NCBI GenBank assembly: GCA_002731275.1
Contig: PCBK01000150.1
Coordinates: 1-64,000 of the forward strand
DNA from: Deltaproteobacteria bacterium
GTDB taxonomy: Bacteria > Myxococcota_C > UBA6777
Direction: 5' to 3'
Length of the DNA: 64,000 nt
The translations under genes were made by a program, and so were the position numbers. Shown here piece after piece: positions 781 to 24,945 of the stretch. Under the pieces are notes generated by a model, which saw only the letters and a program-made list of their open reading frames with translations, did no database searches and had not been told where the DNA came from. Each line of letters begins with the position of its first letter. Positions within the stretch are counted from its first letter, which is position 1.

Positions 781-790
781 CGGGATTTTT

Positions 791-906
791 GGGCGGCATC
801 TTTGGGCAAGTTCCCACTTGCCCCTTCTTCTGCCGCGCTTCGCTTGCCGGGCTGCATCTTTGGGCAAGTTGCCACTTGCCCCTTCTTCTGCCGCGCTTCG
901 CTTGCC
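791..906. repeat. Two tandem 58-bp palindromic repeat units
   Basis: Unit 1 (791-848) and unit 2 (849-906) are nearly identical. Each contains the palindrome GGCAAGTTGCCACTTGCC (stem GGCAAGT/ACTTGCC, one base different in unit 1) and ends with GCCGCGCTTCGCTTGCC. The same unit occurs in reverse orientation near 24800-24940. The copies lie between the convergent Sui1-like and leucine-rich-repeat genes. This is a REP-like dispersed repeat family with no coding content. Confidence 0.9.
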
Positions 907-916
907 CCTTTCTAAC

Positions 917-981
917 GGGGATGCACGGGCATCCCCTGGCGCGCTCCGCTTGCCTTCCCCTCCTGTTGACGCCTTCGGCGT
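917..981. repeat. Two further perfect hairpins in the same spacer
   Basis: GGGGATGC/GCATCCCC with loop ACGG lies at 917-936, and ACGCC/GGCGT with loop TTC lies at 969-981. Stem sequences differ from each other and from the tandem units before them, but the layout matches the hairpin series at 24716-24799. They could act as bidirectional terminators for the two convergent genes, although there is no T-run. Confidence 0.75.
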
Positions 982-990
982 GAACCCATC

Positions 991-2280
991 TTATATAATC
1001 TTCACGGCGGCAAATCTCTCCGTTGACTTGAGCTTTTTCACAAGCTCTCTGTACGCCGCGCCGTTATGATAATACAATGGCTTGATCCTCAGTTCCTGAA
1101 GAGACTCCAGCCCTGTTGTCTCCAAAAACACCTCTAACATGTTGACATTTGAAAAGACACTCGACACATTCAAGTGAGTCAACGAAGATAAATAGGGCGC
1201 AGAGACCAACTTCTTATACTCTTTCAACTCCCAATGGTTCCCGTCCAGAGACAGCGAACGAAGATGTTGCAATCTTGGACTCTCAAGTATCCTCTCCAGA
1301 CCTCTACTGCGAATCGAACAATGTGAAAGAGACAAAGACTCTAACAACTCAAGACCTGACCACTTGAGTAACTCTTCGACACCCTGATCACCAATAGGAT
1401 TATTGGACATATTAAGCGCACGAAGCTGTGGCAACCTCCACGCCTTGAGGAGCTTCTTAAAGTTATCCGCGGTCAACACAGAACTCTCCATCGAAAGAGC
1501 CTGCAAAGAATCCCACATCGGATGACCAGACCACGCCTTGATCCAATCCGTCTTACCAGACGAACCACCTCGAAGACCACCTAATGAAAGGTCTTCGAGA
1601 TCAGGCCAGCCTTCACACTCCGCGACCTTCACAACCGTCGCTGGATTGAAAAAACAATGATCAACGTTGAGCACATGCAGTGAACGAAGATGAGGCGACT
1701 TTGCCAACGCAACCACACCTTCCTCCGAGCCTGTATGAGGGAGATGAAGCGCCTCCAATGTGCTCAACTGTGGAGCACGCGCAAGCACTTCTGCACCTGC
1801 CTTTTGCATATAGTTCCCTGCCAACATCAACTTACGAAGCGCTGGCCAACCACCACTCGAAAATAAGATGTCGAGATCGTCCTTCGACAAGTGACAAGAC
1901 GAAAGGTGAAGCTGTGTAATCGACTTCTGGCTTGCAGGCGCGTCGAGATGGAGTAGCTCATCATCCACAAAGGAGTGACCATTTAAGCGCAACGTACGCA
2001 CAATCTCCCAAAAAGGTTCCTGCTCATAAAATGAACGGAAGAAAACGTGCAAAGGCATATTTTTGCCAGGTGTGATGATACGTGTCTCATCATCCCAAGA
2101 AGACAGATGGACCCCCAAGTACGCGAGCGCCATCTGTCGCTCCGCCTCAGAAGACCAGCCATCATCACGCAAAATCTCCACCAACCGCCTCCACACACGA
2201 CCCCCACCTTTTCCACGAACAGGGCGGTGTTGCCTCGCAGAGACCGATAACATACGACGTATTTCAGCAAAGTGTTCCAT
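991..2280 (-). CDS. Leucine-rich-repeat protein (429 residues)
   Basis: The start is ATG at 2280, chosen because AAGGA sits eight bases upstream; the longer frame to 2349 has no ribosome site. Residues 1-100 form a non-repeat head with a segment (AYLGVHLSSWDDETRIITP) that has a clear counterpart in the divergent neighbour at 2453. From about residue 115 to the end, ribonuclease-inhibitor-like repeats of roughly 24-29 residues follow (LRKLMLAGNYMQKAGAEVLA, LRALNMSNNPIGDQGVEELL, LRSLSLDGN). There is no signal peptide or membrane segment, so it is probably cytoplasmic and protein-binding. It is a paralogue of the next gene, arranged head to head, with 172 bp between the starts that must hold both promoters. 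The partner and function are unknown. Confidence 0.85.
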   Translation of the reverse strand: MEHFAEIRRMLSVSARQHRPVRGKGGGRVWRRLVEILRDDGWSSEAERQMALAYLGVHLSSWDDETRIITPGKNMPLHVFFRSFYEQEPFWEIVRTLRLNGHSFVDDELLHLDAPASQKSITQLHLSSCHLSKDDLDILFSSGGWPALRKLMLAGNYMQKAGAEVLARAPQLSTLEALHLPHTGSEEGVVALAKSPHLRSLHVLNVDHCFFNPATVVKVAECEGWPDLEDLSLGGLRGGSSGKTDWIKAWSGHPMWDSLQALSMESSVLTADNFKKLLKAWRLPQLRALNMSNNPIGDQGVEELLKWSGLELLESLSLSHCSIRSRGLERILESPRLQHLRSLSLDGNHWELKEYKKLVSAPYLSSLTHLNVSSVFSNVNMLEVFLETTGLESLQELRIKPLYYHNGAAYRELVKKLKSTERFAAVKII

Positions 2281-2452
2281 CGACACGATCCTTTTTGGGT
2301 TGGCACAAGAGTATTCACGTCCCCAATCATAACGAACACACAAACACAAATGTTCGTTGATGAGGTTGTAAACTTTCTACTTGCGCCAAACAAAAACGTG
2401 TGTACAGATACTCTCATGCTTCAAAGGACCTCCGACCAACAAAGGAATACGG

Positions 2453-4495
2453 ATGACACAAGGCGCCCCATTTGGGCAAGAGCAGCTCACACAATTACGC
2501 GAGCTGCTGCACAAAACTTACACAAGAGGACAATTCAAGAAGATCCTGGACTTGTTCTTGTCACACCAACCATCCGTCGAGATGGAGACAGGCATCCACT
2601 ACGCGCTCGGACACCTGGAAAATTGGTTCGATGAGAGACGATGTACCCTCTCTCCTGTCCACTGGCAGCTATGGATGGACGGTGAATCCCCTGCTCTGAC
2701 GAGTGATTACTGGCCAGATTGTCCGACAGGTGAACCGCACCCTTGCTTTATCCTCGTGCGTTCACTCTCGCTCTTCCAAGAAAATCTACAGACAGCAGAC
2801 GCCGAACAACTCGCCGCCTCTCCACATATGGCGCACATCACAAAGCTCAACTTGGACTTCAATGACATTGGTGACAAAGGTCTTCAGGCTTTCGCGGCGT
2901 CCCCACACTTTCGCAACCTCACCCATCTCGATCTTCACGAAAATGGTATCGGCGACGAAGGCGCAATCGCCCTCGCCAACTCACCTCATCTGACCTCTCT
3001 CACACACCTGAATCTCGACCAAAACCAGCTCGGCTGGCGAGGCATCAAAGCCCTCCTCACCTCCGAACACCTCCCCCTTGTCGAGCTGCGTCTCTCCGAG
3101 AACAACATCTCAGACAAGACCATGCGCGCGCTGCTCGGCGTCCTCGGCCCAACGTCACTTCGCCACCTCTCACTCAGCGACAACGATATCAGCGAAGACA
3201 GTCTCACCTATTTTTGCAAGAGCGCGGCCTTCTCCCAGCTTACACAGCTCGATTTGAGTAGCAATCCCATCGGCCCAAAGGGCGCAAAGGCGCTCGCTCA
3301 ATCCCCACATGTTTCCCATCTCGAAGAACTCCATCTCGTCGAAGCCGAGATAGACGACGAAGGCGCCAAAGCGCTCGCTGAGAGTAAGACACTTGTACAG
3401 CTCAAACGGCTGGATCTGACCAACAACCACATCACAACCAAAAGCATCGAAGCCCTCGCTCACGCGACACTCTTCTCACAACTCACCTATCTGTCGTTGT
3501 CCGGCAATCGCATCGACGTAACAGGCACACAGCTACTCGCTCAATCCCCACACACGACCTCTCTCGAAACCCTGAATCTCAGCCACAACCCCATCGGTCA
3601 TTGCGTTGAACTCGTCCACTCACCAAACATGTCGGCGCTCAGACAGCTTGTCCTCGTGGGCTGTTCACTCGAAGATGAGAGCCTGAAGGCCATCGCCACC
3701 TCAAGCGCGATGAGACAACTCAAAGATCTCGACCTGCGCGACAACAAAATCACCGCAGAAGGTCTCCTCAGTCTCAGCAAACCTAACGAATTACATGCGC
3801 TTGTGTTTCTGGATCTGTCGGAAAATGCGCTCAACACACATCACCCATTCCCTTTACAAACACTACAACACCTCCCCTCATTAAAACGTCTGTCCTTGCA
3901 ATTTTGCGCCCTTGATGAAGAGTGCACTGATGCCCTCATCACCCCGGAGAATTTGCGTAATTTGCGTGAGTTGATGGTGTACGGCAATACACTCGGAGAA
4001 AAAGGCTTCAAGGCGCTCTTACAACACGCACAACAACAAGGCGCGACAGGACTCGACCTCTCCTACCATAACCTCACAGATGAACACATCACGCTGATGG
4101 TCGAAGGACACTATCTATCGGGGATGCGGAGCCTTATGCTCGATGAGAATTTTATCTCTGACCAAGGGCTCATCACCCTCTTCTCATCTCCTGATATTGC
4201 AGATCTCGAAGAGCTTAATCTCGGTGGCAATGCCTTCGGAGAAGAAGGTCTTCAGGCCATCGCGGCATCTCCCTACTTGACCAAATTGCGGATCATGTAT
4301 CTCGATATCGATGAATACGATCCAGGTAATTGTGAGATCATCGGCCTCTCCACGACACTCCCCCCAGCCATACGGCGCCCCTTCGTCGAACAGCTCCCAA
4401 CAGAGTTACTCCGTCAACACGTCCAGAGAAACTTCTTCTTGCGCACATTCATGGACCGCGAAACCCTCATCGAGGCGCTCCTCGAAGACAAATAA
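2453..4495 (+). CDS. Leucine-rich-repeat protein (680 residues)
   Basis: The start is ATG at 2453 with AAAGGA six bases upstream; the frame extends to a TTG at 2381 that has no ribosome site. Residues 1-110 are a helical head related to that of the divergent gene (HYALGHLENWFDERRCTLSPVH). About twenty repeats of the type LxxLxLxxNxIGDxGAxALAxSPHL follow and run almost to the C-terminus, which ends in a short charged helix. There is no signal peptide. Bacterial ribonuclease-inhibitor-like repeat proteins of this kind are common in Myxococcota and Planctomycetes and usually lack a known ligand. The 3' end meets the APS reductase gene tail to tail with only two bases between the stop codons, so no terminator fits between them. 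Confidence 0.88.
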   Translation: MTQGAPFGQEQLTQLRELLHKTYTRGQFKKILDLFLSHQPSVEMETGIHYALGHLENWFDERRCTLSPVHWQLWMDGESPALTSDYWPDCPTGEPHPCFILVRSLSLFQENLQTADAEQLAASPHMAHITKLNLDFNDIGDKGLQAFAASPHFRNLTHLDLHENGIGDEGAIALANSPHLTSLTHLNLDQNQLGWRGIKALLTSEHLPLVELRLSENNISDKTMRALLGVLGPTSLRHLSLSDNDISEDSLTYFCKSAAFSQLTQLDLSSNPIGPKGAKALAQSPHVSHLEELHLVEAEIDDEGAKALAESKTLVQLKRLDLTNNHITTKSIEALAHATLFSQLTYLSLSGNRIDVTGTQLLAQSPHTTSLETLNLSHNPIGHCVELVHSPNMSALRQLVLVGCSLEDESLKAIATSSAMRQLKDLDLRDNKITAEGLLSLSKPNELHALVFLDLSENALNTHHPFPLQTLQHLPSLKRLSLQFCALDEECTDALITPENLRNLRELMVYGNTLGEKGFKALLQHAQQQGATGLDLSYHNLTDEHITLMVEGHYLSGMRSLMLDENFISDQGLITLFSSPDIADLEELNLGGNAFGEEGLQAIAASPYLTKLRIMYLDIDEYDPGNCEIIGLSTTLPPAIRRPFVEQLPTELLRQHVQRNFFLRTFMDRETLIEALLEDK

Positions 4496-4497
4496 AC

Positions 4498-5517
4498 TCA
4501 CTCATCCTCCGCGACATGGAGACCACATTCGCGCTTGGTCGACTCTTCCCACCACCAACGTCCAGCTCTCTCGTGCTCATTGGGCCGAACAGTTCGTGTA
4601 CATGGTTCACATCCAATCGAGATAAAACCCTTCTCATGGAGTGGATTGTAGGGGACTTCGTACTGTTGAATGTACTGCCAGACCTGCGCAGAGGTCCACT
4701 GTGCGAGGGGATTGCACTTGAGCAAGGGACCATCCACACCTTCGAAGGCGGGATCCCATTGAAGCTTCTCGACCTCTGCGCGGGTAGGACTTTGATCGCG
4801 ACGCTGTCCCGTGATCCAGGCCCGATACGAAGACAACGCTCGCCGCAGTGGCGCGACCTTACGAATCCCACAGCACTCCTTATGACCGTCTTCATAGAAA
4901 CTAAAGAGCCCTTTCTCCAACACGAAAGCCTCCAGCGCTTGTGCATCAGGAGACATCAACCGGATCTCGATATCGTAGTGTTTGCGGACCTTATCGATAA
5001 ATTGATAGGTCTCTGGGTGGAGCCTCCCTGTGTCGAGACAGAACACCGAAAAGTCCAGGCCAAACCGCGCCGCCATATCGATCAACACGACATCCTCAGC
5101 CCCAGAGAAGGCGATCGCACAAGTCTCTCCAAAACGTCCTAAAATCCACTTGACCACTTGTTGCGGTGACGCCTCAGCAAACTCCGTCGACAACGCATCC
5201 ACATCAATCGCCGTATCAAGAAGTTCTTTGTTGGGTTGGTTGGCCTTGAGCTTCTCCACCTCTTTGGCAAAACGCAGGGCGCTGCGAAAGAGCAACGTCT
5301 CGCCCTTTTTAATGTGGATGAGAAAGAATGGCGCGATCTTTACTTTGTGTTCAGCGGCCAACAACATACCGGGAGACTCAGGGTCACCTTCTTCGGCCCA
5401 CACGACATAATCGATGGTATCCCATAACCCCCGCTCACGCAGGAGATGTTCTGCCTGCTGGCACTTCTCACAGGGTTCACCATCTGCCAATCTCTTCTTC
5501 ACCATTGTAATCTTCAT
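4498..5517 (-). CDS. cysH: Assimilatory APS reductase with N-terminal CxxC redox domain
   Basis: A 339-residue protein; the start at 5517 has AAAGGAGA six bases upstream. Residues 1-95 resemble a glutaredoxin or thioredoxin fold with Cys16-Glu-Lys-Cys19. The rest is the PAPS/APS reductase fold: the nucleotide loop SGAEDVV, the substrate segment [10 protein letters not shown], then KECCGIRK and GCEPCTR, which supply the cysteine pairs that hold a 4Fe-4S cluster in the adenylylsulfate type, and the C-terminal ECGLH with the catalytic cysteine. Presence of both cysteine pairs points to APS rather than PAPS as substrate. The enzyme makes sulfite for cysteine synthesis. Plant APS reductases carry their redox domain at the C-terminus, so the order here is reversed. 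No other sulfate genes are nearby. Confidence 0.9.
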
Positions 5518-5685
5518 GCTCGCTCTCCTTTGGGCTACTCCAAAAATGACCTTCATCATGACGATCTTGGACACGTTTGGCAACATGGACAAATATGTCG
5601 ACAAAGACTTTGGACAAAAAACAAGGACAAAGGCGACATCTACACAGCAAGAGTTTTTCGTTCTACCACCAACAAGGGCAAAGAG

Positions 5686-6372
5686 ATGCTGCGATATAGT
5701 ATCTTTGTGATCACACTGGCTCTCATGAGCCTCCATGCACACGACGTGTCAGCGTCGAATAAACAGCGCGTTGTCCTCAAGGATGGCTCGATTTTCCACG
5801 GGTACATCAAGAATATGGACGGTAAATGGGTTGTCTTGCAAACGTCTGGAGGCAGGCTACGGATTCCAGCAAAGGACATCAAGGGCATCACATTCCTCAA
5901 AGACAGCAGTATGCCGACAACGCGCAACCCCACCCAAAAGAGAAGCAAACGAGTCATTCACAAGTGGCGACAGAAAAAAATCCGCAGGGGCTTAATCGTC
6001 GGTGGGCTTACGGTCTTGACATTGAGTTACAGTCTCGGCGCGTTGGGGAGCTTCGCGGTCACGAGCAGCGGCCTCGGAGGATACCAGGATATCGCCGCAG
6101 GGTTTCTGATGTTGCCCGTCTTGGGGCCCTTTGTGAGCGCAGGGATCTTTGCAGCGAACAGAGGCTCAGGAGATGGTATTATCGCCTTTGTCGTCCTTGG
6201 TGTGTTGCAAACAGGTGGACTTGGACTCCTGCTCGCAGGTATATTTGGCAAGAAGCCAAAAGACAACAAGAAGCGCATGATGCAACCCAAACCAACGAAC
6301 GAGACAACAACCTCATGGCTCCCGGCTCCTCGACAGGAGCCCGCCGCACTTCATCCCATTTTCGTCCGATAG
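5686..6372 (+). CDS. Tandem membrane protein 1 (KDGS beta-domain plus membrane pair)
   Basis: A 228-residue protein starting at ATG 5686 (AAGGGCAAAG upstream). It has a signal or anchor segment (residues 1-25), then a short beta domain with [20 protein letters not shown] and [15 protein letters not shown], a basic linker, and two or three hydrophobic segments (about residues 103-200: [47 protein letters not shown]), then a polar tail. The beta domain resembles small SH3- or Sm-like barrels, but I do not recognise a named family. It is the first of three adjacent paralogues transcribed together (7-bp gap to the next gene). Each shares the motif order KDGS, YGRLRI, LSYS, LLPLVGPF and GxxQGxxLGLL. 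They probably assemble as a hetero-oligomer in the inner membrane. Function unknown. Confidence 0.75.
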
Positions 6373-6379
6373 GTCAGGT

Positions 6380-7099
6380 ATGTTCCCACAACGACAACCT
6401 CTCACACACAGCGTCGCGATGCTCGCGCCTCTCCTCCTTGGGGTGCTTTGTGTTGGCCTGTTGTCCACTCCGAGACAAGCCAAAGCGACAGTGTACGCCA
6501 TTCGTTTAAAAGATGGTTCGAGGATCAAGGGGACGTTGTCGATGATCACACCACTGCGCGTCGTGGTCCAGACCCCATACGGTCGACTCTCTCTCTACCG
6601 CTCAGAGGTCGAATCCATCTACCCACCTCTTTATCGCTACCTGATCATGACGAGGCGTGGATTGCGCATCACGCTCTCTCCTTTCAGAGGGGGCGTACCG
6701 CTCTTCAGGACGACCGCAGTCAAACGCAAAGAACCCACTCCCCGACAGAAGCTGATCACGGCAGGGATGTCGTTGTTCACATTGAGCTACAGCCTGTGTC
6801 TGATCCCTGGACTGTTAAGCCTCGGTCCAATCGCCCCCAATCTCGAATCCACGACCTTGTTGATTCCCTTGGTTGGACCTTTTATCAGCACCTTCGCGAT
6901 GGCTTTGAACCCACAGAACATCAAGGCTTTTGCCGCGCTCCCTCTGACACTTGGCGTCATGCAGGGGCTTGGACTTGGGTTGATGATATGGGGATGGATG
7001 ACACCAAAGAAGACCAAAAAGACGAGACGAACAAAGCGTCTCTCGGCGCACGTTCCACTTTACGACAACGACACAATATTTTACACAGAGAGCAACTGA
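6380..7099 (+). CDS. Tandem membrane protein 2, paralogue of its neighbours
   Basis: A 239-residue protein. A secretion-type N-terminus (about residues 13-36, LAPLLLGVLCVGLLSTPRQAKA) is followed by the beta motif RLKDGSRIKGTLSMITPLRV, then TPYGRLSLYRSEVESI, a linker of about 40 residues, and hydrophobic segments LFTLSYSLCLIPGL, LLIPLVGPFISTFAMAL and GVMQGLGLGLMIWGW. A basic tail (KKTKKTRRTKR) follows, so the C-terminus probably faces the cytoplasm. The start at 6380 follows the first gene by 7 bp; a second ATG at 6419 is possible. The stop overlaps the start of the third gene as ATGA, which implies translational coupling. Function unknown. Confidence 0.75.
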   Translation: MFPQRQPLTHSVAMLAPLLLGVLCVGLLSTPRQAKATVYAIRLKDGSRIKGTLSMITPLRVVVQTPYGRLSLYRSEVESIYPPLYRYLIMTRRGLRITLSPFRGGVPLFRTTAVKRKEPTPRQKLITAGMSLFTLSYSLCLIPGLLSLGPIAPNLESTTLLIPLVGPFISTFAMALNPQNIKAFAALPLTLGVMQGLGLGLMIWGWMTPKKTKKTRRTKRLSAHVPLYDNDTIFYTESN

Positions 7100-7755
7100 T
7101 GAGATGGCTTACACTTTTCATACTTGTGTTGGGTTTGATCAGCCTCACCCCTTCCGAAGTCGACGCCACAACACTGCACAAGATCCAGCGTAAAGATGGT
7201 TCATATATCATCGGTGAGATCCAGCGGCAGACTAGGTATTGGCTCTACGTCAAAACGAAATACGGACGCATTCGTCTACGTATCAGTCGCTATCATCGAC
7301 TCAAAGTCACACCCTATTCATCTTCCAAACCTCTCCCCACAAAAGCCACACACTACTATACATGGCGACGTGGCATCCACCCCAACGAGGAACCTCTACT
7401 CGTCGGGATGTACATGTTTGGTTTGAGCTACATCGTGCCGCTCTCGATCATTTTGTACACCATCCCTTCGAGTAATCAGCCTGCGACACTGCTTCAACTG
7501 CTCCCTTTCGTGGGGCCGATTGCCCACGCAGGTGTCATCATCAGTGAACGGAAAGATCTATGGGCTGTGTATGGTGGTTTGTCCCTTGGATTGGGCATTG
7601 TACAGGGTGTCAGTCTTGGACTGCTTTACTTTACGATGAAGAAGTCTCGCCCCAAAATCCCCTTCTGGAAGCGTCCTCGAATAGGTCGCAGATACATCCC
7701 CACACCATCAATGACGGGCAAACTCACGACACTCAGCCGTGAGCTTGGTTTATAG
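7099..7755 (+). CDS. Tandem membrane protein 3, paralogue of its neighbours
   Basis: A 218-residue protein whose ATG at 7099 overlaps the previous TGA by four bases. It has a signal segment (residues 3-24, ending EVDAT), then QRKDGSYIIGEIQRQTRYWL and TKYGRIRLRISRYHRL, a linker, then hydrophobic stretches MFGLSYIVPLSIILYTI, LLPFVGPIAHAGVII and GLGIVQGVSLGLLYF. The tail is basic. The motif order is the same as in the two genes before it, while sequence identity outside the motifs looks low, so the triplication is old. The gene ends 20 bp from the convergent HEAT-repeat gene. Function unknown; an envelope complex is the simplest reading. Confidence 0.75.
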   Translation: MRWLTLFILVLGLISLTPSEVDATTLHKIQRKDGSYIIGEIQRQTRYWLYVKTKYGRIRLRISRYHRLKVTPYSSSKPLPTKATHYYTWRRGIHPNEEPLLVGMYMFGLSYIVPLSIILYTIPSSNQPATLLQLLPFVGPIAHAGVIISERKDLWAVYGGLSLGLGIVQGVSLGLLYFTMKKSRPKIPFWKRPRIGRRYIPTPSMTGKLTTLSRELGL

Positions 7756-7775
7756 CCTTTTGTGGAACATGTGCT

Positions 7776-10700
7776 TCAGGAGGTGGGTTTTTTGTTCGTC
7801 GGCATACTTGTGGGGCGGGGCTTTTGACTCGCGTCGTAGAGGGCCTGGATCTTACGTACCATTTCACGTCGTCTGTGCAACCCTTCATCGAGGGTTTTCT
7901 TTCCCTTTTTGCCGAGAGAGAGGAGAGACTTTTGTGTCTGTCGTCTGACACCTGCGTATGGATCGTCGAGGAAAGGTTGCAGCGTCGCGATAACTTCAGG
8001 AGCTGCTCCTCCTACCCGCGCGATCGCCTGAATCAACGTCATCCGAAGATACCCTGTCGTTTTTCTCTCCAACAGCTCGAACAAGAGAGGCAACGTCTCC
8101 TTGGCTTTCCCACGAAGCTCACCAATCGCCAGGACCAGCTCATCCATGATCCAATGTTTCTTGGCGTGCTGTAAGCGACGGACGAGCGCGGGAAGACCAC
8201 GTTTTCCAGCCTTCCCAAGCGCCCGCACGACCTGAGAAAACTCCCAACTGTCTTTGGTCTGTAAACAAGACGCGAGCAACGGGATAGAGGAAGGAGGTGG
8301 ACCGATCAAGTAGAGCGCTCTGGCCACAGAAGCCCGCACTCTTGGCTTGGGATCTTTCAACATCTTCACGAGCTTGGGAAGCTCTTTCACCGCGTCCTTC
8401 TCGTACTCGCCGATGGCCGCTGCTGCATACCCACGTAAGAAGGCATTTTTGTGTGTCAAAAAAGGCCGCAACAAAGGGATCATCTTCTTTCCGAGCTTCT
8501 TCTGTCGAGAGACCGCCTGGATCACAAAACGATGTGTCGTCGTCCCGACCTTTTTGGAGCGCAGGACGAGTTTGAGTCCGTACATCGCTTTGGGCCACTC
8601 ATTCGCGAGCTTTGCGAGCGCAACAGCCGATTCCTTACGTGTGTGGTAACGTCCCCTCACGAGTGAGCGAACAAGTGTGTAGACGATGGAGTGTGTGCCG
8701 ATGCCAACCTTACCAAGAGCACGCGCCATATACCGACGCAGCTTGCGTTTACCTTTGCGCAGGTAATAATTGAGCCACAACACGGCTTGTTTGCCACCTT
8801 TCCCCATCGCACCAATCGTCTTGAGGAGCTCTTTACGGAGCGCCCCATCTTTCTCCAGGATGAAGGCTCTGATCACGGACCAATTCTCCGTCTCAGGAAA
8901 CTCCTTCACGGCGAGGAGTGTCTTGACAGCCTCACGACGCAAGCCTTTCTTCTTAGAAGACAACAATTGAATCAGGTACGGCGACGCCATCGCCGCCTTT
9001 GTCTCCATCTTTTGCCAAATCCCAAACAACGAAGGGATCCTCTTGGGTTCCTGTTCAAAGAGCCGTAAGGTCTCAAACATCGCGTCCATACCATACGTCG
9101 CGATGGAGAGCTGCGCCTGTTTACGGACCGCCTTGTGCTTGCTCTTGAGCTGTGTAAACAAGAGCGCCAAGGCTTCGGAGGAGTGAAAATCCTTACGTCC
9201 GAGGAGTTGGGCCGCTTTGGCCCGTACAATGGGAAATGGACTTTCGAGCGACTTGCGCAACAACGTGTAGGACACTTGGGGTGTGAGGAGTCCATTGACA
9301 AGCGCCTCAAGCGCGGCCTCACGGACATCGCCATCCATCGATTCGAGGAGCTGCTTGAGGCGGAATGTCGCCCACTTGCCCTTGCTCCCAAGTGTCGAGA
9401 GGACCCTGGCGGCGTGTTTTTGCAAGTGAGGATGCTTTGCGTACAGCGCGGATTCGAGGACCTTTTGGGCAGAAGGATGTGCTGCCTTCTTGAGCATACT
9501 CAAGACGAGCAATTTTCCACGCGTCTTCAGCGGCGCATACAACGAGAACACCGCAGGCATCCACTCTTGCGTTTGTCGTTTCAGTGCGAGGAGTGCGTAC
9601 TTTCGGACGCTCTTGTGGCTATCGTCGAGGGAGGAAAAGAGCGCCTTGAGCGCAAAGGGCGCGAGCAGCTCCATACGTTTCGCGAGCCCGTAGGCTGCGT
9701 GGTAACGGATCTTCTTGTTTGGATCAGAGAGTGCGTTGACGAGCACAGGCATAGACTGTAATCCCAAGCGACTGATCGCCCACACGGCGGTCCTTCTGAC
9801 CTGGACAGAGGTGTCTTTGTACGCGAGCATCAGCGCCGAAAATGCAGCAGGCCCTAGCCCACCGAGTTGTGCAGCGGCGACTCTTCGGACACGTGGATCG
9901 GGATCTTGAAGACCATGTCGTAAAATCGGCAACAACGAGGCGAGGTCATGTGCGGCGAGCCTCGCGAAGCCACTCATCGCCCACATCCGCAGACGGGGAT
10001 ACTTTGTGCCGAGCGCTCGCTGCAGATAAGGCAGCCTCTGCCCTGCAGGGAGCGCGTCGAGTCTCTTACGGGAGTAGCTTCTGATCTCGGAGGTCGGGTG
10101 GAGCATCCCCTTCATCCAGGCGATGGGAGAACGTCGGTCCCACTTCTTCAGATATTGATTGGCTAATTCTCGCAAGCTCTCTGTTTTATCGGACAGGAGC
10201 TTCAAAAATGCCGGAAAGACCTGTGCTCTGGCATAAGGAGCGTGAAGGACCAGCACTTTACCGAGCTGTTCTCTCACCCGCGCGTCTTTGTCGAACACTC
10301 TTCTCAGGATGTAAGGCAACAGAGGCAAGGAGCGCGCCTTCCACTGTGCAGCGACAAACAGGCTGTTGCGCCTCACCCACCAATGTGGATCTTGCAGTGA
10401 GCGCGTCAGGTGGGGGATGATCTTGGCCGAATGTTTGGGGAAACGACTCAACACGTACAGCACGTTGACGCGACAGCGCCAGTTTTTCGAGGCCAGACCA
10501 CGTAGAATGAGCTTCAAATAGCGCCCCTTCATACTCACGAGGATCATGGCTGCGCCCATCCGGATGGCGCGCTTCTTGTGACCTAACCCCGCGACGATTG
10601 TGGGGACACTCGATGGCGCGTGTTTACGAAGGAACAAGAAGGCCGCGCGTTTGTCGGCTTTCTTTTTGCTCGCGAGCTTTGCCAACCAGCGCCCATAGAG

Positions 10701-10874
10701 GTCGGACGATGAAGACGTTTTTTTGGCTGTGATTTTCTTTTTCGTGGGTGTGATTTTCTTTTTGGCTGGAGCACGTTTGGTTTGTTTGGTGTTCGTTGGT
10801 TGTTTGGCCAGCGCTTGAGAAGAGAGCAAGCACCACCCCAAACATACCAACATTCCGAATCGCAATCTGTCCAC
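7776..10874 (-). CDS. Secreted HEAT-repeat protein (1032 residues)
   Basis: The start is GTG at 10874, with GGGAGG four to five bases upstream; no ATG in this frame has a comparable site. Residues 1-23 are a signal peptide ending SSQALA, followed by a Lys/Thr-rich linker to about residue 55. The rest is a continuous run of some 25 HEAT repeats of 35-40 residues, with recurring DPxxxVRxxAAxALGxLG-type helices (LQDPDPRVRRVAAAQLGGLG, LKDPKPRVRASVARALYLIG). No enzymatic domain is seen. HEAT solenoids scaffold protein complexes; a fully periplasmic or exported one of this size is uncommon outside Myxococcota-like genomes. It lies convergent to the membrane triplet, and its partner is unknown. Confidence 0.88.
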   Translation of the reverse strand: MDRLRFGMLVCLGWCLLSSQALAKQPTNTKQTKRAPAKKKITPTKKKITAKKTSSSSDLYGRWLAKLASKKKADKRAAFLFLRKHAPSSVPTIVAGLGHKKRAIRMGAAMILVSMKGRYLKLILRGLASKNWRCRVNVLYVLSRFPKHSAKIIPHLTRSLQDPHWWVRRNSLFVAAQWKARSLPLLPYILRRVFDKDARVREQLGKVLVLHAPYARAQVFPAFLKLLSDKTESLRELANQYLKKWDRRSPIAWMKGMLHPTSEIRSYSRKRLDALPAGQRLPYLQRALGTKYPRLRMWAMSGFARLAAHDLASLLPILRHGLQDPDPRVRRVAAAQLGGLGPAAFSALMLAYKDTSVQVRRTAVWAISRLGLQSMPVLVNALSDPNKKIRYHAAYGLAKRMELLAPFALKALFSSLDDSHKSVRKYALLALKRQTQEWMPAVFSLYAPLKTRGKLLVLSMLKKAAHPSAQKVLESALYAKHPHLQKHAARVLSTLGSKGKWATFRLKQLLESMDGDVREAALEALVNGLLTPQVSYTLLRKSLESPFPIVRAKAAQLLGRKDFHSSEALALLFTQLKSKHKAVRKQAQLSIATYGMDAMFETLRLFEQEPKRIPSLFGIWQKMETKAAMASPYLIQLLSSKKKGLRREAVKTLLAVKEFPETENWSVIRAFILEKDGALRKELLKTIGAMGKGGKQAVLWLNYYLRKGKRKLRRYMARALGKVGIGTHSIVYTLVRSLVRGRYHTRKESAVALAKLANEWPKAMYGLKLVLRSKKVGTTTHRFVIQAVSRQKKLGKKMIPLLRPFLTHKNAFLRGYAAAAIGEYEKDAVKELPKLVKMLKDPKPRVRASVARALYLIGPPPSSIPLLASCLQTKDSWEFSQVVRALGKAGKRGLPALVRRLQHAKKHWIMDELVLAIGELRGKAKETLPLLFELLERKTTGYLRMTLIQAIARVGGAAPEVIATLQPFLDDPYAGVRRQTQKSLLSLGKKGKKTLDEGLHRRREMVRKIQALYDASQKPRPTSMPTNKKPTS

Positions 10875-11916: not shown

Positions 11917-11945
11917 ATCACCCCTCATCTCTACGACACGCATCT

Positions 11946-12518: not shown

Positions 12519-12521
12519 CTC

Positions 12522-13344: not shown

Positions 13345-13423
13345 GAAAAATCAACAAGAAAATGAAAAAACTTTCAGAACAGGTAAGATACTCCCGGTGT
13401 AAGGGGGTTCTTTTTGGGAAAAA

Positions 13424-15403: not shown

Positions 15404-15577
15404 GGTCGTCGGATGGAAAAAAGCGAAGACAAGAGGGCAGTGGGTGGGGCCTCAGGCAAGGCATGAGGAGAAGGCGTAGCATCGCTACGCCGACGACAAA
15501 TAACAAAGCCTGTGGCTTCAGCAACAACCTTCTGTCTTCGTCTCATTTTCCGTATTCTTTTTTCTATCCGACGGCCT
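15404..15577. repeat. MITE-like palindromic element between convergent genes
   Basis: A 174-bp segment bounded by inverted ends of about 20 bp: left end GGTCGTCGGATGGAAAAAAG, right end (reverse complement) GGCCGTCGGATAGAAAAAAG, with two mismatches. Inside lie a second inverted match around GAAGACA and a perfect hairpin GGCGTAGC-ATC-GCTACGCC at 15473-15491. It begins right at the htrA stop codon and ends 20 bp before the stop of the esterase gene. No coding capacity. A flanking target duplication is at most TA. It could also fold as one long bidirectional terminator. Confidence 0.65.
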
Positions 15578-15597
15578 AACCTCCACAGACACACTGC

Positions 15598-16845: not shown

Positions 16846-17055
16846 CCCATCTCCATTGTCCAAATAAGTACATTCAACGCAGGCTTCAACCAAAGAAGCC
16901 CTGGGCAAGGCAAAAATGTAAAGCTGTAGACACATTTTTTTGCAGACAATGGCGTCGACCCGCGTCAGCCTTGACTTGCAAGGCTGAAACACATAAGCTT
17001 ACGAGCTTCGATCGATGATCCAAATACGTTATTTTCATACGCAGGAGTGCCTTTG

Positions 17056-19095: not shown

Positions 19096-19160
19096 ATACG
19101 ATCTCTTTTCCTCGCTCCCCTCTCGGTATTCTCGTCGTTTTTTGGAAAGGAAAGAAATAG

Positions 19161-20369
19161 ATGGAGAGTTACATTCTCGATTGGCTCAACCTCTTGTTGC
19201 GTTGGTTCCACTTGATCGCTGGTGCCGCGTGGATTGGTGCTTCATTTTACTTCAACTGGCTCAACCACAGCATCCGCCCACCTGAAGACGAAGGGCTGGA
19301 AGGTATGGAGGGCATCAAAGGGCAACTCTTCGCCGTACACGGCGGTGCCTTTTACCAAGTCCTCAAGTACAAAGGTGCCCCTGCCAAGCTGCCCAAGACG
19401 CTGCACTGGTTTATGTGGGAAGCCTACTCGACGTGGTTGTCGGGATTTGGCCTTGTGATCGTCGTCTATTACTGGAACGCCAAACTCTACCTGATCAAAA
19501 GTGGCGCGAACGCGCTCGTCCCCTGGCAGGCGATCTTGATCAGCCTGGGCTTCATCGTCGGTGGTTGGTTGATTTACGACTTCTTGTGTAAAACGCCCCT
19601 GCCCAAAAAATCTCCAGTGCTCTTCGTCACGCTCGGCTTTGCGCTCATCTCCGTCGCGGCCTTCGCGCTCTCTTACATCTATCCTCCCCGCGCATCGTAC
19701 ATTCATGTTGGTGTGATCTTGGGGACGATTATGGCGGCGAACGTCTTCTTTGTGATCATCCCTAAGCAGCGCGTGATGGTCAACGCGATGATCGAAGGCA
19801 AAGAGCCAGACGTCACAGCCGGCGAAGCTGGCGCGATGCGTTCACTGCACAACAACTACTTCACGCTCCCAGTGTTGTTCATCATGATCAGCAACCACTT
19901 CCCGATGACGTATGGACATAAGTTCAACTGGATCGTGCTGCTCGCGATCTCCGTCATCGGCGCAGGTGTACGTCACTACTTCAACCTCAAGCACAAGGGG
20001 CATTACAACGTCTGGGTCCTACCAGTCGCTGCGGTCGCGATGTTCTCCCTGGCGTTTGTCATCCGACCTGTCCCAAAAGCAGCTTCTAAGACATTCGTGA
20101 TCAAAAAGAAGCTGGCATACGGTGACGTCGCCTCGATCATCCAAAAGCGCTGTGTCCCCTGTCACGCGAGTAAACCGACATACCCCGGCTTTACAGCACC
20201 ACCACAAGGTTCCAAGTTTGAAGCCTACCAGGAGATCGTCAAGCTGCGTGCCAAGATGCTGACCAACGTCAAAAACAGCGTCATGCCTCCGGGCAATCTC
20301 ACGGGCCTTACGGATAGAGAACGTGCGTATCTCGTCCACTGGCTCGATCATGGTGCTCCCGAAAAATAA
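19161..20369 (+). CDS. puuD: Membrane urate oxidase with cytochrome c domain (PuuD type)
   Basis: A 402-residue protein with about eight membrane segments over residues 1-305 (starting LLLRWFHLIAGAAWIGASFYF, the family signature), then a C-terminal cytochrome c domain with the haem site Cys331-Val-Pro-Cys334-His335 and the distal Met in VMPPGNLTGLT. The family oxidises urate to 5-hydroxyisourate and passes electrons to the respiratory chain instead of making peroxide. AAAGGAAAG precedes the ATG. The next enzymes in the pathway (HIU hydrolase, OHCU decarboxylase, allantoinase, allantoicase) are all nearby, which fixes the role with confidence. Gene spacing (65 bp before, 35 bp after) fits one operon. 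Confidence 0.93.
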   Translation: MESYILDWLNLLLRWFHLIAGAAWIGASFYFNWLNHSIRPPEDEGLEGMEGIKGQLFAVHGGAFYQVLKYKGAPAKLPKTLHWFMWEAYSTWLSGFGLVIVVYYWNAKLYLIKSGANALVPWQAILISLGFIVGGWLIYDFLCKTPLPKKSPVLFVTLGFALISVAAFALSYIYPPRASYIHVGVILGTIMAANVFFVIIPKQRVMVNAMIEGKEPDVTAGEAGAMRSLHNNYFTLPVLFIMISNHFPMTYGHKFNWIVLLAISVIGAGVRHYFNLKHKGHYNVWVLPVAAVAMFSLAFVIRPVPKAASKTFVIKKKLAYGDVASIIQKRCVPCHASKPTYPGFTAPPQGSKFEAYQEIVKLRAKMLTNVKNSVMPPGNLTGLTDRERAYLVHWLDHGAPEK

Positions 20370-20404
20370 CCTAAAAAATTACTTTATCTTTTACGGAGAC
20401 CTAT

Positions 20405-21739
20405 ATGTGGGGAATTCGTTCGACAAATATCGTCCACGCTGACCGCATTGTGTCCGGCGTCATCCTGATCAAGGGGCAACACATCCACTCGATCGTCCAA
20501 GAGGCTCCAGAGGGCATCGAGATAGAAGATGTCGGAGACCTCGCAGTCATGGCCGGTGGTGTGGACTCACACGTACACATCAACGAGCCAGGACGGACAG
20601 AGTGGGAAGGATTCGAGACTGCCACAAAGGCCGCGCTGAAGAGCGGCTTGACGACGCTCGTCGATATGCCACTCAATTGTTCACCTGTCACGACCACGCT
20701 CGATGCCTTCGAACAAAAACTCGCCAGTATGCCTGGAAAATGTCATGTAGACGTCGGCTTTTGGGCAGGTGTTGTCCCTGACAGTGTCTCTTCACTCGAC
20801 GCGCTGATGCAACGAGGAACACTCGGTGGCAAAGCCTTCATGTGCCACTCTGGTATCGATGAATTCCCTGCAGCCGATGAAGAGACACTCCGTCAATCAC
20901 TGAAGATCTTCAAACGATACGACGTCCCGCTGCTCGCCCATGCAGAGATCACTTCGGAGGTCGCTCTTCCTGCGCTCCCGACGACATCGTACAAGTGCTA
21001 TCTCGCATCACGTCCGACCTCTTGGGAGATCGACGCCATCGAGATGTTAATTCGTCTATGTCGAGAGACAGGGGCCCACGTACATATCGTCCACCTCTCC
21101 GCAGCCGACGCGCTCCCGATGATCAAAGAAGCTCGCGAAGAAGGCCTCCCCCTGACCGTCGAGACTTGTCCTCACTACCTCTGTCTTCAGGCTGAGGATA
21201 TCCCGGACGCATCACCTCTTTACAAGTGCGCGCCCCCTATCCGCGAGAAGGCGAACAGAGACGCGCTGTGGCAGGGTCTTAAAGATGGCCTGATCGACTT
21301 TGTGATCTCCGACCACTCGCCCTGCCCGACGACGATGAAGGAGCTGGAGAGTGGCGACTACTTCAAGGCTTGGGGAGGTATCTCTTCTCTGGATCTTGGG
21401 CTCTCCTTGCTGTGGACGGAGGCGTCCGAGCGGGGATATGGGTTGACTGACATCGCCCGCTGGCTATGTGAAGGCCCGGCTCGCTTCGCCGGTATCGAGG
21501 CACAAAAAGGGAATCTCGCGCCGGGAACAGATGCGGACATCGTCATCTGGGATCCTGAGGTGGAGTACACCTTGCAAAGAGAACACCTCGTCACGCGACA
21601 TGCAGCCACACCATACCTTGGGATGTCTCTCAAGGGTCAGGTGAAGAAGGTCTACCTTCGTGGTGAGGTCGCGCTCGACGAAGAAGGATTCCATCCTCCC
21701 CGTGGTCAGGCTCTCCTCCACCAACACTCCAACACATAA
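20405..21739 (+). CDS. allB: Allantoinase
   Basis: A 444-residue amidohydrolase of the cyclic-amidohydrolase class that opens allantoin to allantoate. The metal site begins with DSHVHINEPG (His56, His58). Lys143 in GGKAFMCHSG is the expected carboxylated bridging lysine. Later metal histidines lie in LLAHAEI and VHIVHLS, and the metal aspartate in ISDHSPC. The C-terminal segment (GNLAPGTDADIVIWDPE) closes the beta-sandwich. Length matches AllB. It is followed after 10 bp by allantoicase in the same direction, so the operon continues through allantoate. The start ATG at 20405 has GGAGA seven bases upstream. Confidence 0.95.
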   Translation: MWGIRSTNIVHADRIVSGVILIKGQHIHSIVQEAPEGIEIEDVGDLAVMAGGVDSHVHINEPGRTEWEGFETATKAALKSGLTTLVDMPLNCSPVTTTLDAFEQKLASMPGKCHVDVGFWAGVVPDSVSSLDALMQRGTLGGKAFMCHSGIDEFPAADEETLRQSLKIFKRYDVPLLAHAEITSEVALPALPTTSYKCYLASRPTSWEIDAIEMLIRLCRETGAHVHIVHLSAADALPMIKEAREEGLPLTVETCPHYLCLQAEDIPDASPLYKCAPPIREKANRDALWQGLKDGLIDFVISDHSPCPTTMKELESGDYFKAWGGISSLDLGLSLLWTEASERGYGLTDIARWLCEGPARFAGIEAQKGNLAPGTDADIVIWDPEVEYTLQREHLVTRHAATPYLGMSLKGQVKKVYLRGEVALDEEGFHPPRGQALLHQHSNT

Positions 21740-21749
21740 GGTAATATAG

Positions 21750-22778
21750 ATGAAAGACAATCAATCGATTGGTATCTCCAATGGCATCGACCTTCTCGCT
21801 GAATCACTTGGTGGAAAGGCGCTCTTGTGTTCAGATGATTTTTTTGCGTCCATGGACAATCTCGTCAAAGAGGGCCGCGGTGTCTTCTTACCTGATGAGT
21901 ACACGGAGCGCGGCAAATGGATGGACGGCTGGGAGAGTCGCAGAAAGCGAGATGAAGGACACGATTGGTGTATCTTGAAGCTCGGTGTGCCAGGTGTGAT
22001 CTCCGTCTTCGACATCGACACCAATCACTTCCTCGGCAACCACGCACCATTCGCCTCGGTGGAAGGCTGCTTTGCGCCAGATGCTGATGACACATCTGAC
22101 TTTTCAGACGTCAATTGGAAGCCATTGCTCGGACAAGTTCCTCTGCAACGAGGTTCACAAAACCTGTGTATGGCGTCCTCACAAGAACCTGTCACCCATC
22201 TCAAGTTGCACATTTACCCGGATGGTGGTGTCGCTCGCTTCCGAGCCTATGGCAAGCCCATGCCACGTTGGGAGCAGAGTGAAGACGACAGCCGCTTCCC
22301 ACTCAAAGAGGGTGAAATTGATCTGGCGGCGCTGCGAAATGGTGGCGAGGCGCTGGTGTGTTCAGATATGTTCTTTGGCACGATGCACAACTTGATCGCG
22401 CCGGGTCGTGCCCGTGTGATGGGTGAAGGCTGGGAGACACGTCGTAGCCGCAGAGAAGGCTATGATTGGATCATCGTCAAGCTCGGCGCGATCGGAAACA
22501 TTGACTTTGTGGTTGCGGACACAAACCACTTTAAAGGAAATTTCCCAGAGAGTTTTCGGTTGTATGGACTTCATGCACCGGAGACATCGTTGTTGGAGCT
22601 TCAGCAATCCTCTCAGCCTTGGGAAGAGATCATCCCCCAGACAAAGATGCAAGCACACCATGAGCACATGTTCCGCGACGAGATCAAGGCGCGTGGACCT
22701 TTTAGTCATGTGAGGCTGGATATCTTCCCAGATGGGGGTGTGAGTCGTCTTCGTGTGTATGGGAGTAAAGCATCATGA
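21750..22778 (+). CDS. alc: Allantoicase
   Basis: A 342-residue protein made of two homologous halves, each beginning with a conserved run (GGKALLCSDDFFASMDNLVKEGR and GGEALVCSDMFFGTMHNLIAPGR) and containing GWE(S/T)RR(K/S)R, DTNHF(L/K)GN and a final IxPDGGV(A/S)R strand. This is the allantoicase jelly-roll repeat. It cleaves allantoate to ureidoglycolate and urea. The stop codon overlaps the start of the OHCU decarboxylase as ATGA, so translation is coupled. No ureidoglycolate lyase or urease gene is seen in the window, so those steps must be coded elsewhere or be spontaneous. Confidence 0.95.
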   Translation: MKDNQSIGISNGIDLLAESLGGKALLCSDDFFASMDNLVKEGRGVFLPDEYTERGKWMDGWESRRKRDEGHDWCILKLGVPGVISVFDIDTNHFLGNHAPFASVEGCFAPDADDTSDFSDVNWKPLLGQVPLQRGSQNLCMASSQEPVTHLKLHIYPDGGVARFRAYGKPMPRWEQSEDDSRFPLKEGEIDLAALRNGGEALVCSDMFFGTMHNLIAPGRARVMGEGWETRRSRREGYDWIIVKLGAIGNIDFVVADTNHFKGNFPESFRLYGLHAPETSLLELQQSSQPWEEIIPQTKMQAHHEHMFRDEIKARGPFSHVRLDIFPDGGVSRLRVYGSKAS

Positions 22779-23284
22779 GTACGGTCGCAATGCACCTCAA
22801 CGGGCTCGACGATGAACAATGTAAAGAGGCGCTTACGAGATGCTGTGGAGCCCATCGTTGGGTCGAGCAGATGATGAATAAGCGTCCTTTTGCTTCGGAT
22901 GAGCAGGTCTTTTCGGAGGCCGAATCGATTTGGCAATCTTTGGGGCGAGAGGACATTTTAGAGGCCTTTACCCACCACCCTAAGATCGGCGCAAATGTCG
23001 ACGAGTTAAGGAAGAAGTTCCAAAAGACGCATACATGGTCATCGCAAGAACAAGCTTCTGTGCAGGAGGCAGATGAAGAGACCCTTCAGGCGCTCGCCCA
23101 AGGGAATCGTGATTACGAAGCGCGTTTTGGTTATATCTTTATCGTGTGTGCGACAGGCAAAAGTGCCCAAGAGATGCTGACGTTATTACAAGCACGTATT
23201 CACAACGAAGACGAAAAAGAGTTGTCTATTGCGGCAGGTGAGCAGCAAAAGATTACCAAGATTCGATTAGAAAAATTATCGTAA
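22775..23284 (+). CDS. OHCU decarboxylase
   Basis: A 169-residue all-helical protein that converts 2-oxo-4-hydroxy-4-carboxy-5-ureidoimidazoline to S-allantoin, the third step after urate oxidation. The signature is CCGAHRWVEQM, then AFTHHPKIGA with catalytic His68, WSSQEQASV, and NRDYEARFGYIFIVCATGKSAQEML. A helix with an E..I..RL-like end follows. The ATG lies inside the allantoicase stop (four-base overlap). In many genomes this enzyme is adjacent to or fused with HIU hydrolase; here that partner lies 1.1 kb downstream, past two unrelated small genes. Confidence 0.95.
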   Translation: MSTVAMHLNGLDDEQCKEALTRCCGAHRWVEQMMNKRPFASDEQVFSEAESIWQSLGREDILEAFTHHPKIGANVDELRKKFQKTHTWSSQEQASVQEADEETLQALAQGNRDYEARFGYIFIVCATGKSAQEMLTLLQARIHNEDEKELSIAAGEQQKITKIRLEKLS

Positions 23285-23338
23285 CAGTCCATTCCCGACA
23301 AACAAAGGCTATCGAGAAAAAGCTTTGGAGAGGTGTGT

Positions 23339-23656
23339 ATGAGTTTATTTTGGCTCAATGTCATGATAGCTGTAGTGCTCGAAGCTTTTGGTTTGTGGCT
23401 CACAGCTCACCTCGTCTGGCCAAGATGGAAGGTTGTGGGAAAAACAATGTTCTACTTGAGCTTAAGTACCGCGCTCTCCTGGTATTGGCCACGTTGGGCG
23501 TTAATATTTATAATAGGACACCCGCTGCTTGGATTGGGAATCCATATCTGGCTCTGTCATTCATGGGGACTGACTTGGTGGAATGTTGATGCTGAAAAGT
23601 ACATTCAAGCACAAAAGGACTGGGTCAAGAGCCTCGAAAACAGACAAAAACAATAG
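23339..23656 (+). CDS. Small membrane protein of the ureide region
   Basis: A 105-residue protein; start ATG 23339 with GGAGAGG upstream. It has three hydrophobic segments (residues 4-25, 34-52, 56-75) rich in Trp (SLFWLNVMIAVVLEAFGLW, ALSWYWPRWALIFIIG, LGLGIHIWLCHSWGLTWW) and a charged C-terminal helix. No family recognised. It lies 54 bp after OHCU decarboxylase on the same strand, so it may be co-transcribed, and could serve transport or anchoring. That is inference from position only. Confidence 0.7.
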   Translation: MSLFWLNVMIAVVLEAFGLWLTAHLVWPRWKVVGKTMFYLSLSTALSWYWPRWALIFIIGHPLLGLGIHIWLCHSWGLTWWNVDAEKYIQAQKDWVKSLENRQKQ

Positions 23657-23680
23657 TCCACACACACCGGTTCTAAAAGA

Positions 23681-24214
23681 CTATGCCCCACCCCTGATAG
23701 AAATGGGCGTCTCTAAGCAAAACTCACAAAAAGCATCATTCCTCTTGTGATACACTCTGACTGAACAGACAGCCCCAACCTCCAAACTCTCCTCTCCAAC
23801 AATGGGAGGAAAGAGTTGTCTATCCATTCCATCCTGTATACATTCTCTGGCGACAAGTACACCCTCAACCAAATCATCAAGACTCACAAAAACATACCCC
23901 CATTCAAGAATCGCAGTCACCTTGACCTCTACGACATCACCGAGACTCAAACGCCGCCGGAGACTCTCCTCAGGAGTCCACTCTGACAAAATATATGTAT
24001 CCGTTTCTGAGACATAGCTTACGATATACAAATCGACGACATCACCCACCCCAAACAAATCATCTGACAGTGGCCGAACCAACTTTCTCTCCAAACGGAT
24101 ATCAGGATACCGAAGGATTCCTTTGCGTCCATGACCAAAAGAAACCACAAACCCCAAATCAAAGGGTCCTTTTATCGTCGCCCTGACTTTTTCTCCACCA
24201 AACAAAGACATCAT
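23681..24214 (-). CDS. Protein with tandem S1-like RNA-binding folds
   Basis: A 177-residue protein starting at ATG 24214 (AGGAGG six bases upstream; an adjacent ATG at 24211 is equally possible). Two segments look like OB/S1 barrels: residues 5-75 (VRATIKGPFDLGFVVSFG..GILRYPDI..VGDVVDLYIVSY) and 85-140 (LGDVVEVKVTAILEWGYVFVSLDDLVEGVLV). The pattern of a G(Y/F)V strand followed by a G(I/V)L strand and GD.V is typical of S1 domains. The rest is a third beta-rich region with three cysteines. The role may be RNA binding or only structural. It lies on the opposite strand between two ureide genes and breaks their order. Confidence 0.65.
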   Translation of the reverse strand: MMSLFGGEKVRATIKGPFDLGFVVSFGHGRKGILRYPDIRLERKLVRPLSDDLFGVGDVVDLYIVSYVSETDTYILSEWTPEESLRRRLSLGDVVEVKVTAILEWGYVFVSLDDLVEGVLVARECIQDGMDRQLFPPIVGEESLEVGAVCSVRVYHKRNDAFCEFCLETPISIRGGA

Positions 24215-24358
24215 CGTCAACCTCCTCGTCATATCATACACCATTCTGCTCTTTCATGGGGGGTGTACATCCATTGATCACAAAGGAAGCGTGTGTTATC
24301 CTTCGCGCCTTGAAACAATGATTTGGCCGAAACAACAAATGAGGTTGGAGAAAATAAA

Positions 24359-24700
24359 ATGAAGAGCCCCATCACAACACACGTCCTCGACACAATGACA
24401 GGTTCCCCGGCGGCAGGTCTGGCGATCAAGTTGCTCCAAAAGCAGGATGAACAATATGTCCAGCTTGCGTCGGGATATACCAACAACGACGGCCGCATTG
24501 TCGATTTGCTGGAACCAGGTTCACTCACCCCTGGCATTTACCAGATGCACTTCGACACAGGTGAATACCATCACGCCGCCGGCTTGAAAGGCTTTTATCC
24601 TGAAGCTGTCATTACCTTCGAGGTTGTCTCGACTGATGAACACTACCACATCCCCCTCCTGCTCAGCCCCTTCGGATACTCAACCTACAGAGGCTCCTGA
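24359..24700 (+). CDS. hiuH: 5-hydroxyisourate hydrolase (transthyretin-like)
   Basis: A 113-residue protein; start ATG 24359 (GGAG eight bases upstream). It shows the family pattern from end to end: ITTHVLDTMTGSPAAGL (catalytic His8), GRIVDLL (Arg in the active site), FFYPEAV-like segment GFYPEAVITF, HYHIPLLLSPFGYSTYRGS with the C-terminal YRGS that separates the enzyme from transthyretin proper. It hydrolyses 5-hydroxyisourate, the product of urate oxidase, to OHCU. There is no signal peptide, so it is cytoplasmic. It completes the urate-to-allantoin set in this window. The 3' end faces a long array of hairpins. Confidence 0.95.
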   Translation: MKSPITTHVLDTMTGSPAAGLAIKLLQKQDEQYVQLASGYTNNDGRIVDLLEPGSLTPGIYQMHFDTGEYHHAAGLKGFYPEAVITFEVVSTDEHYHIPLLLSPFGYSTYRGS

Positions 24701-24715
24701 TCCAACGTTCCAAAA

Positions 24716-24945
24716 GCGCCGCAGGCGCAACACAAACGATACGCAGTATCGTGGGGTTCGGGGTGAAAACCCCGAGCAGGTGTGGACGGCGAGTCCACAA
24801 CGCCAAGCGAAGCGCGGCAGCAAAAGGGGCAAGCGAAGCGCGGCAGCAACAGGGGCAAGTGGCAACTTGCCCAAAAAAGCGGCAGCAAAAAGGGGCAAGT
24901 GGCAACTTGCCCAAAAAAGCGGCAGCAACAGGCGCAAGTGGAAAT
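24716..24945. repeat. Hairpin array with reversed copies of the 58-bp-type unit
   Basis: A series of perfect short hairpins with different stems: GCGCC-GCA-GGCGC (24716-24728), CGATAC-GCA-GTATCG (24737-24751), GGGGTT/AACCCC (24753-24773), and TGTGGAC-GGCGA-GTCCACA (24781-24799). They are followed by repeated GCGAAGCGCGGCAGCAA and two copies of GGCAAGTGGCAACTTGCC. The latter are the reverse complement of the palindrome at 791-906. The array lies between the convergent HIU hydrolase gene and the gene ending at 25026. No protein is likely. Confidence 0.88.

Follow-up and report, generated by a model that had tools for sequence, protein, structure and literature searches.

The 64,000-nucleotide stretch analysed here (the window; positions 1 to 64,000 of contig PCBK01000150.1, assembly GCA_002731275.1, a Deltaproteobacteria bacterium of the GTDB lineage Myxococcota_C, UBA6777) carries two hairpin arrays, and both are copies of a polar mosaic palindromic repeat that occurs at about 200 places in the genome. 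The repeat follows a common order, in which a structured head of type A or B is followed by 'CAAGCGAAGCGCG' units and then by tail palindromes, read on the minus strand at site 1 (781–990) and on the plus strand at site 2 (24701–24949). These arrays probably belong to a system resembling repetitive extragenic palindromic (REP) sequences, their bacterial interspersed mosaic elements (BIMEs) and REP-associated tyrosine transposases (RAYTs), with the tails as the REPs, a RAYT-like protein as the likely mover of the tails and the heads as structured passengers. The source assembly consisted of 10.75 Mb in 200 contigs with an estimated contamination of 5.5%, and many of its contigs terminate in repeats. 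The comparison relatives nearer than domain level were four species of the same family (G001–G004).

Screening of the whole window revealed clusters with at least three stems of at least 7 bp at sites 1 and 2 only. An earlier note on this sequence had described series of perfect hairpins with short loops (GCA, TTC, ACGG, GGCGA) at both places, and these could be confirmed at 804–823, 862–881, 917–936 and 969–981 (site 1) and at 24716–24728, 24736–24752, 24758–24775, 24781–24799, 24853–24872 and 24893–24912 (site 2). The REP-like unit GGCAAGTTGCCACTTGCC was likewise found and, as the note had reported, faces opposite directions at sites 1 and 2; the location of each array between convergent 3′ ends was confirmed as well. 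Site 1 lies between a SUI1 gene (plus strand, 349–780) and a leucine-rich repeat (LRR) gene (minus strand, 991–2349), and site 2 between a transthyretin/HIUase gene (plus strand, 24323–24700) and an open reading frame (ORF; minus strand, 25026–25763). Long LRR and HEAT-repeat proteins are also encoded near site 1 (2381–4495 and 7776–10874). The features of the two arrays, with scores from the covariance models built for head A (R1) and head B (R2), were as follows.

912–983, minus strand: head A with three hairpins (hp1 with loop GAA, hp2 CAAGCGGAGCGCG, hp3 GGGGATGCCCGTGCATCCCC), conserved linkers and a GTTAG end; R1 score 102.7 bits, covariation over 67 distinct copies.
889–908, minus strand: middle unit GGGGCAAGCGAAGCGCGGCA, from sequence, of a repeated family.
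862–881, minus strand: REP-like tail palindrome GGGCAAGTGGCAACTTGCCC; 95 genomic sites at no more than one mismatch, control matches 0.
831–848, minus strand: middle unit GGCAAGCGAAGCGCGGCA, from sequence and family.
804–823, minus strand: tail palindrome GGGCAAGTGGGAACTTGCCC, a loop variant, from sequence.
24716–24728, plus strand: optional first hairpin of head B, GCGCC-GCA-GGCGC, from sequence; other copies have different stems, e.g., GCGCTC-GCA-GAGCGC.
24729–24820, plus strand: head B with hairpins 24736–24752, 24758–24775 and 24781–24799 and CGCCAAGCGAAGCGCGGCAG; R2 score 96.6 bits, covariation over 118 distinct copies.
24826–24846, plus strand: middle unit GGGGCAAGCGAAGCGCGGCAG, from sequence.
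24853–24872, plus strand: tail palindrome GGGCAAGTGGCAACTTGCCC, tail family match.
24893–24912, plus strand: tail palindrome GGGCAAGTGGCAACTTGCCC, tail family match.
24930–24949, plus strand: decayed tail unit AGGCGCAAGTGGAAATGTGG, from sequence.

Genome-wide searches revealed at least 74 matches of head A and at least 126 of head B, both totals being lower bounds. The tail palindrome, whose 20-mer gave the 95 sites listed above, has the consensus GGGC[A/G]AGT-GGNA-ACT[T/C]GCCC, and all eight pairs were Watson–Crick in 128 of its 245 fuzzy matches. Of 110 head–tail pairs, 99 had both parts on one strand with the tail downstream, and the element is therefore polar. Heads stood without a tail at 62 of 175 sites, while some copies fuse hp1 of head A with hp3/hp4 of head B. 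Head density was very uneven in this genome, with about 12 heads in 49 kb on contig C143 and 11 in 81 kb on C177, but no head detected across the 595 kb of C3; possible causes are islands, contaminating contigs or a second replicon. Each of two IMG/VR contigs (L145 and L146; 55 and 75 kb) has a head A with the exact sequence of one found in this genome; they may derive from the same organism as the source. A search for phages or plasmids resembling the window arrays found none.

The head stems differ between copies and remain paired, as proposed earlier, and the REP-like nature proposed in the same note is likewise supported. Across the 67 distinct copies of head A, 98.7% of cells were paired and changes on both sides were seen in 14 of 18 pairs (273 cells). 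The corresponding analysis of 118 distinct head B copies revealed 94.8% pairing, with both-sided changes in 19 of 26 pairs (247 cells). When the pairing partner was slid by 1–3 columns as a control, pairing amounted to 30–60% in head A, and the slid control of head B gave 33–49%. Fitting of the alignments to the structure favours pairing, but the slid controls and a plain reading of the copies concur with them. G-U pairs made up approximately 2–3% of the cells counted from the two covariation tables. Loops read on the head strand were mostly C(GNA)G or C(GNNA)G and the linkers were conserved, while the GTTAG end of head A was variable, with GATAG and GGTAG also occurring. Integron attC sites were dropped as a comparison because this end is not conserved, and the complementary-strand origin of phage G4 gave no model match as a relative of head A.

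Each helix was represented by a handful of common alleles; hp3 of head A, for instance, occurred as GGGGATGC, GGGGACCG, GGGGGATT, GGGTCTTT, GGGGGAAA and a few more. Alleles of separate helices were found in many four-gamete combinations, most clearly in head B. The stem variants come from a small pool of alleles that recur as copies at dozens of places and appear in different combinations from one copy to the next; recombination between copies may be the means of this exchange. This replaces two proposals of the earlier note, namely that the stems are individually novel at each site, whereas both sites are family copies, and that new hairpins are generated instead of copied. The same alleles bear on the possibility that shape is not selected at all and that one arm of a quasi-palindrome is rewritten from its partner through template switching, mimicking covariation. 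Such rewriting would leave stems that are almost wholly Watson–Crick, in which double changes are many but G-U pairs or mismatches as intermediates are few, as seen here. Arm correction does not explain the conserved linkers and the C(GNA)G and C(GNNA)G loops, however, and alleles that are few and recurrent, with whole hairpins seemingly swapped, make this explanation quite unlikely. The presence of 67 + 118 distinct copies in one genome permits a direct test of whether stems stay perfect through shape selection (recognition by a transposase or as RNA) or through palindrome-rewriting repair; why the stems of bacterial palindromic repeats remain perfect is a long-open question.

The placement of the repeats relative to genes was evaluated with gene calls from our own dicodon model, which gave 704 genes on about 1.0 Mb of sampled sequence enriched for element sites. 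The classified sites were distributed as 64 in tandem spacers, 48 in convergent and 9 in divergent ones, besides 21 at contig edges and about 9 apparently intragenic sites, mostly within over-extended ORF starts. Since the sample was picked around elements, only the relative rates per spacer are meaningful; these were 48/135 (0.36) for convergent, 64/331 (0.19) for tandem and 9/114 (0.08) for divergent spacers (convergent vs. tandem, p = 0.0003; tandem vs. divergent, p = 0.003), near the 2:1:0 ratio of flanking 3′ ends. The restriction to convergent spaces claimed earlier did not hold, although convergent spacers are occupied about twice as often as tandem ones and divergent ones rarely. Hairpins occurring as often in tandem spacers or within genes, and stems that simply copy one master sequence, were the two outcomes which the earlier note had named as speaking against it, and each was found at least in part. 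REPs of other bacteria are likewise located mainly between unidirectional and convergent genes (PMC3733652). The bias towards 3′ ends may reflect tolerance rather than function.

The median distance to the stop codon was 79 bp, and stable hairpins so close to genes could represent intrinsic transcription terminators of convergent and tandem genes. On the strand that faces the gene, a terminator scan picked up a few sites, and an opposite-strand TTTT followed hp1 in 31 of 77 A heads. Against this, TTTT followed the tail hairpins in only 2 of 125 cases on their own strand and 3 of 125 on the other, and head B rarely. The A heads with a T-run had no significant orientation bias (11 to 4, p = 0.12), and polar composite heads, with the conservation of their linkers, would be unnecessary for termination. 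A role as terminators is thus very unlikely.

A location after genes would also permit transcription of the heads, and covarying stems with conserved unpaired linkers resemble an RNA family. The heads could then be a structured non-coding RNA or a transcribed 3′-untranslated-region element under selection for RNA fold, with the tails as unrelated REPs. A fixed orientation was not observed, the strand preference in tandem spacers being not significant (same/opposite: head A, 11/21; head B, 19/20). The G-U content is low, very many paralogues occur per genome, and no Rfam family was recovered: the window gave zero matches at gathering score, and six loci that contain either heads or the plasmid relative described below gave no relevant weak match. 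The RNA explanation is considered unlikely, despite the one further point in its favour from the sister genus.

Diverged relatives of head B could be identified in the sister genus by pattern counts on both strands, with 90 matches in G002 and 126 in G004. Their inner stems vary strongly, and a G-T wobble position is kept in a stem, as RNA-fold selection would allow. Some of these copies are enclosed by the inverted terminal repeats GGACTTACGCAGTT...AACTGCGTAAGTCC. An insert of about 430 bp in G004 (L182:1329-1765) contains a hairpin unit and a GTAG-type palindrome with the inverted repeats GGACTTACGCAGTT/AACTGCGTAAGTCC; the matching G002 site (L196:15881-15883) lacks this insert. Another unit of the head B relative is present in both genomes with few changes. 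RAYT-like genes are encoded in both genomes as well, close to palindromes of the form GTAGGGGCGG...CCGCCC or the like. For the third genus, represented by G001 and G003, searches with R1, R2, the pattern and the RAYT found none of them. The elements and the RAYT co-occur among the five genomes, a small sample. A match of R1 in G032 (33.6 bits) was weak, with hp3 poorly paired, and was rejected. The RAYT-like ORF of G002 (L264:1006-1770, minus strand) contains a long in-frame QAQIGQAQIG run, apparently a palindromic repeat expanded within the gene.

The search for a RAYT-like gene suggested earlier revealed a single candidate in this genome. P0001, an ORF of 173 amino acids (C107:24894-25412), encodes an HUH/Y1 protein. 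Upstream lies an array of about 14 tail units, some in each orientation, and the ORF begins 24 bp past its final unit. Its HxH motif lies within MPDHFHAL, and the HxH, W.RNY and RQYI..NP..W motifs are common to P0001 and the RAYT-like proteins of G002 and G004. It scored above the cut-off of Pfam Y1_Tnp, and its predicted fold matched IS608 TnpA and the E. coli-type TnpA-REP 4er8 (Z 9.6). The tetranucleotide GTAA preceded 75 of about 130 perfect tail units at the 5′ side, compared with one GTAG and one GTGG. A Y1_Tnp family search of the genome also found four tnpA-like genes, each with an adjacent tnpB-like ORF on inspection. IS200/IS605 elements were rejected as the mobiliser, as their tnpA copies come with tnpB and the insertion sequence (IS) beside an array on C11 has its own ends.

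In the favoured explanation, the tail palindromes, often tagged with GTAA at the 5′ side, would be REP units. By analogy with its family, the RAYT-like transposase would most likely act on these tails in single-stranded hairpin form and disseminate them, with copying through single-stranded DNA. Heads A and B would be larger folded modules travelling in, or as, the same arrays. New sites may arise through copying, and head hairpins may be swapped between copies as blocks. Pairing in the heads would be maintained by fold selection or by palindrome-correcting repair, and copies would persist chiefly downstream of genes, where insertion is least harmful.

Several observations weigh against this REP/RAYT-like explanation. 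The match of P0001 to the NCBIfam REP_Tyr_transpos model (E 6e-15) was under the curated cut-off, and its structural model, from three sequences, had middling confidence (mean predicted local distance difference test score, 58.7). The tail tag, one base off the classical GTAG, is neither GTAG nor GTGG. Classical rayt genes have REPs on both sides in inverted arrangement (PMC2817692), while no REPs were seen 3′ of the C107 gene; with an array on one side only, the system is classified as a variant and not as a classical REP/RAYT member. No empty site was shown for this genome. No RAYT adjoined a head either, which, together with the tail-less head sites, indicates that the heads may have a mobiliser of their own.

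A further lead came from plasmids. A degenerate head A pattern had one match in 84,980 genomes, on a Thauera contig, with about 0.1 expected by chance as an estimate. The single match is near chance level, but coincidence becomes less probable because it is followed by hp3 and TTAG. Small mobilizable plasmids contain the block around it again, and GGCAAGCGAAGCGCGSCAG or near variants adjoin replication genes in several small Vibrio, Aeromonas and Pseudomonas plasmids. Small plasmids of Proteobacteria (L141:1870-2104; L142, L143, L147, L148 and others) also share a multi-hairpin intergenic block ending in ...GGGGAGGCAAGCGAAGCGCGCCAGGGGCAGCGCCCCTTAG; they are mobilizable or probably rolling-circle plasmids, and their stem changes are matched between plasmids. 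The one block tested against Rfam gave no match, and it is possibly a replication or transfer origin. Overall, the plasmid similarity is a lead and not evidence. Heads A and B might represent a new type of mobile module, a structured single strand of DNA (or RNA) that moves independently of the REPs and evolves by swaps of whole covarying hairpins among about 200 copies. The module may be related to the hp2-hp3-TTAG block, which in small plasmids (several probably of the rolling-circle type) lies near replication genes. This reading has some chance of being correct, though a small one; if true, the relation to the plasmid block would tie chromosomal repeats to plasmid origins of single-stranded DNA.

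Among known systems, miniature inverted-repeat transposable elements (MITEs) of DDE insertion sequences are resembled by the sister-genus head B relative, some copies of which lie within inverted terminal repeats, and one such insert has an empty site in a related species. The heads of this genome lack such repeats, terminal inverted repeats of at least 11 bp surrounding just 7 of 162 head sites. IS200/IS605 elements share the HUH/Y1 transposase fold acting on hairpins, and one tnpA-like gene adjoins an array; however, their copies have tnpB and, where comparable, their own ends, which the arrays are not. The REPIN and the GTAG- and CGTC-tagged super-families (PMC3116915, PMC3733652) are similarly extragenic with a preference for unidirectional and convergent spacers in several phyla, while the tag here is neither GTAG nor CGTC and no inverted REPIN pairing is present; the terms searched in these papers gave no counterpart of heads A and B. 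The closest likeness is to REP/BIME and RAYT systems, including those of Stenotrophomonas and the REPtrons of E. coli (PMC2817692, PMC8266576), which share high-copy short perfect palindromes, a preferred unpaired 5′ tetranucleotide, mosaics clustered downstream of genes and a rayt-like gene adjoining an array. Related REPs with complementary changes in their stems were also described previously (PMC2817692, PMC8266576). The repeat described here differs in its mostly GTAA tag, in the array on one side of the gene and in the rarity of the alternating orientation of BIMEs. It further differs in what precedes the palindromes, a long, polar and structured head whose linkers are conserved and whose hairpins covary. 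REP/RAYT-like biology would thereby extend to a deep uncultivated lineage, with a polar architecture more elaborate than in known descriptions.

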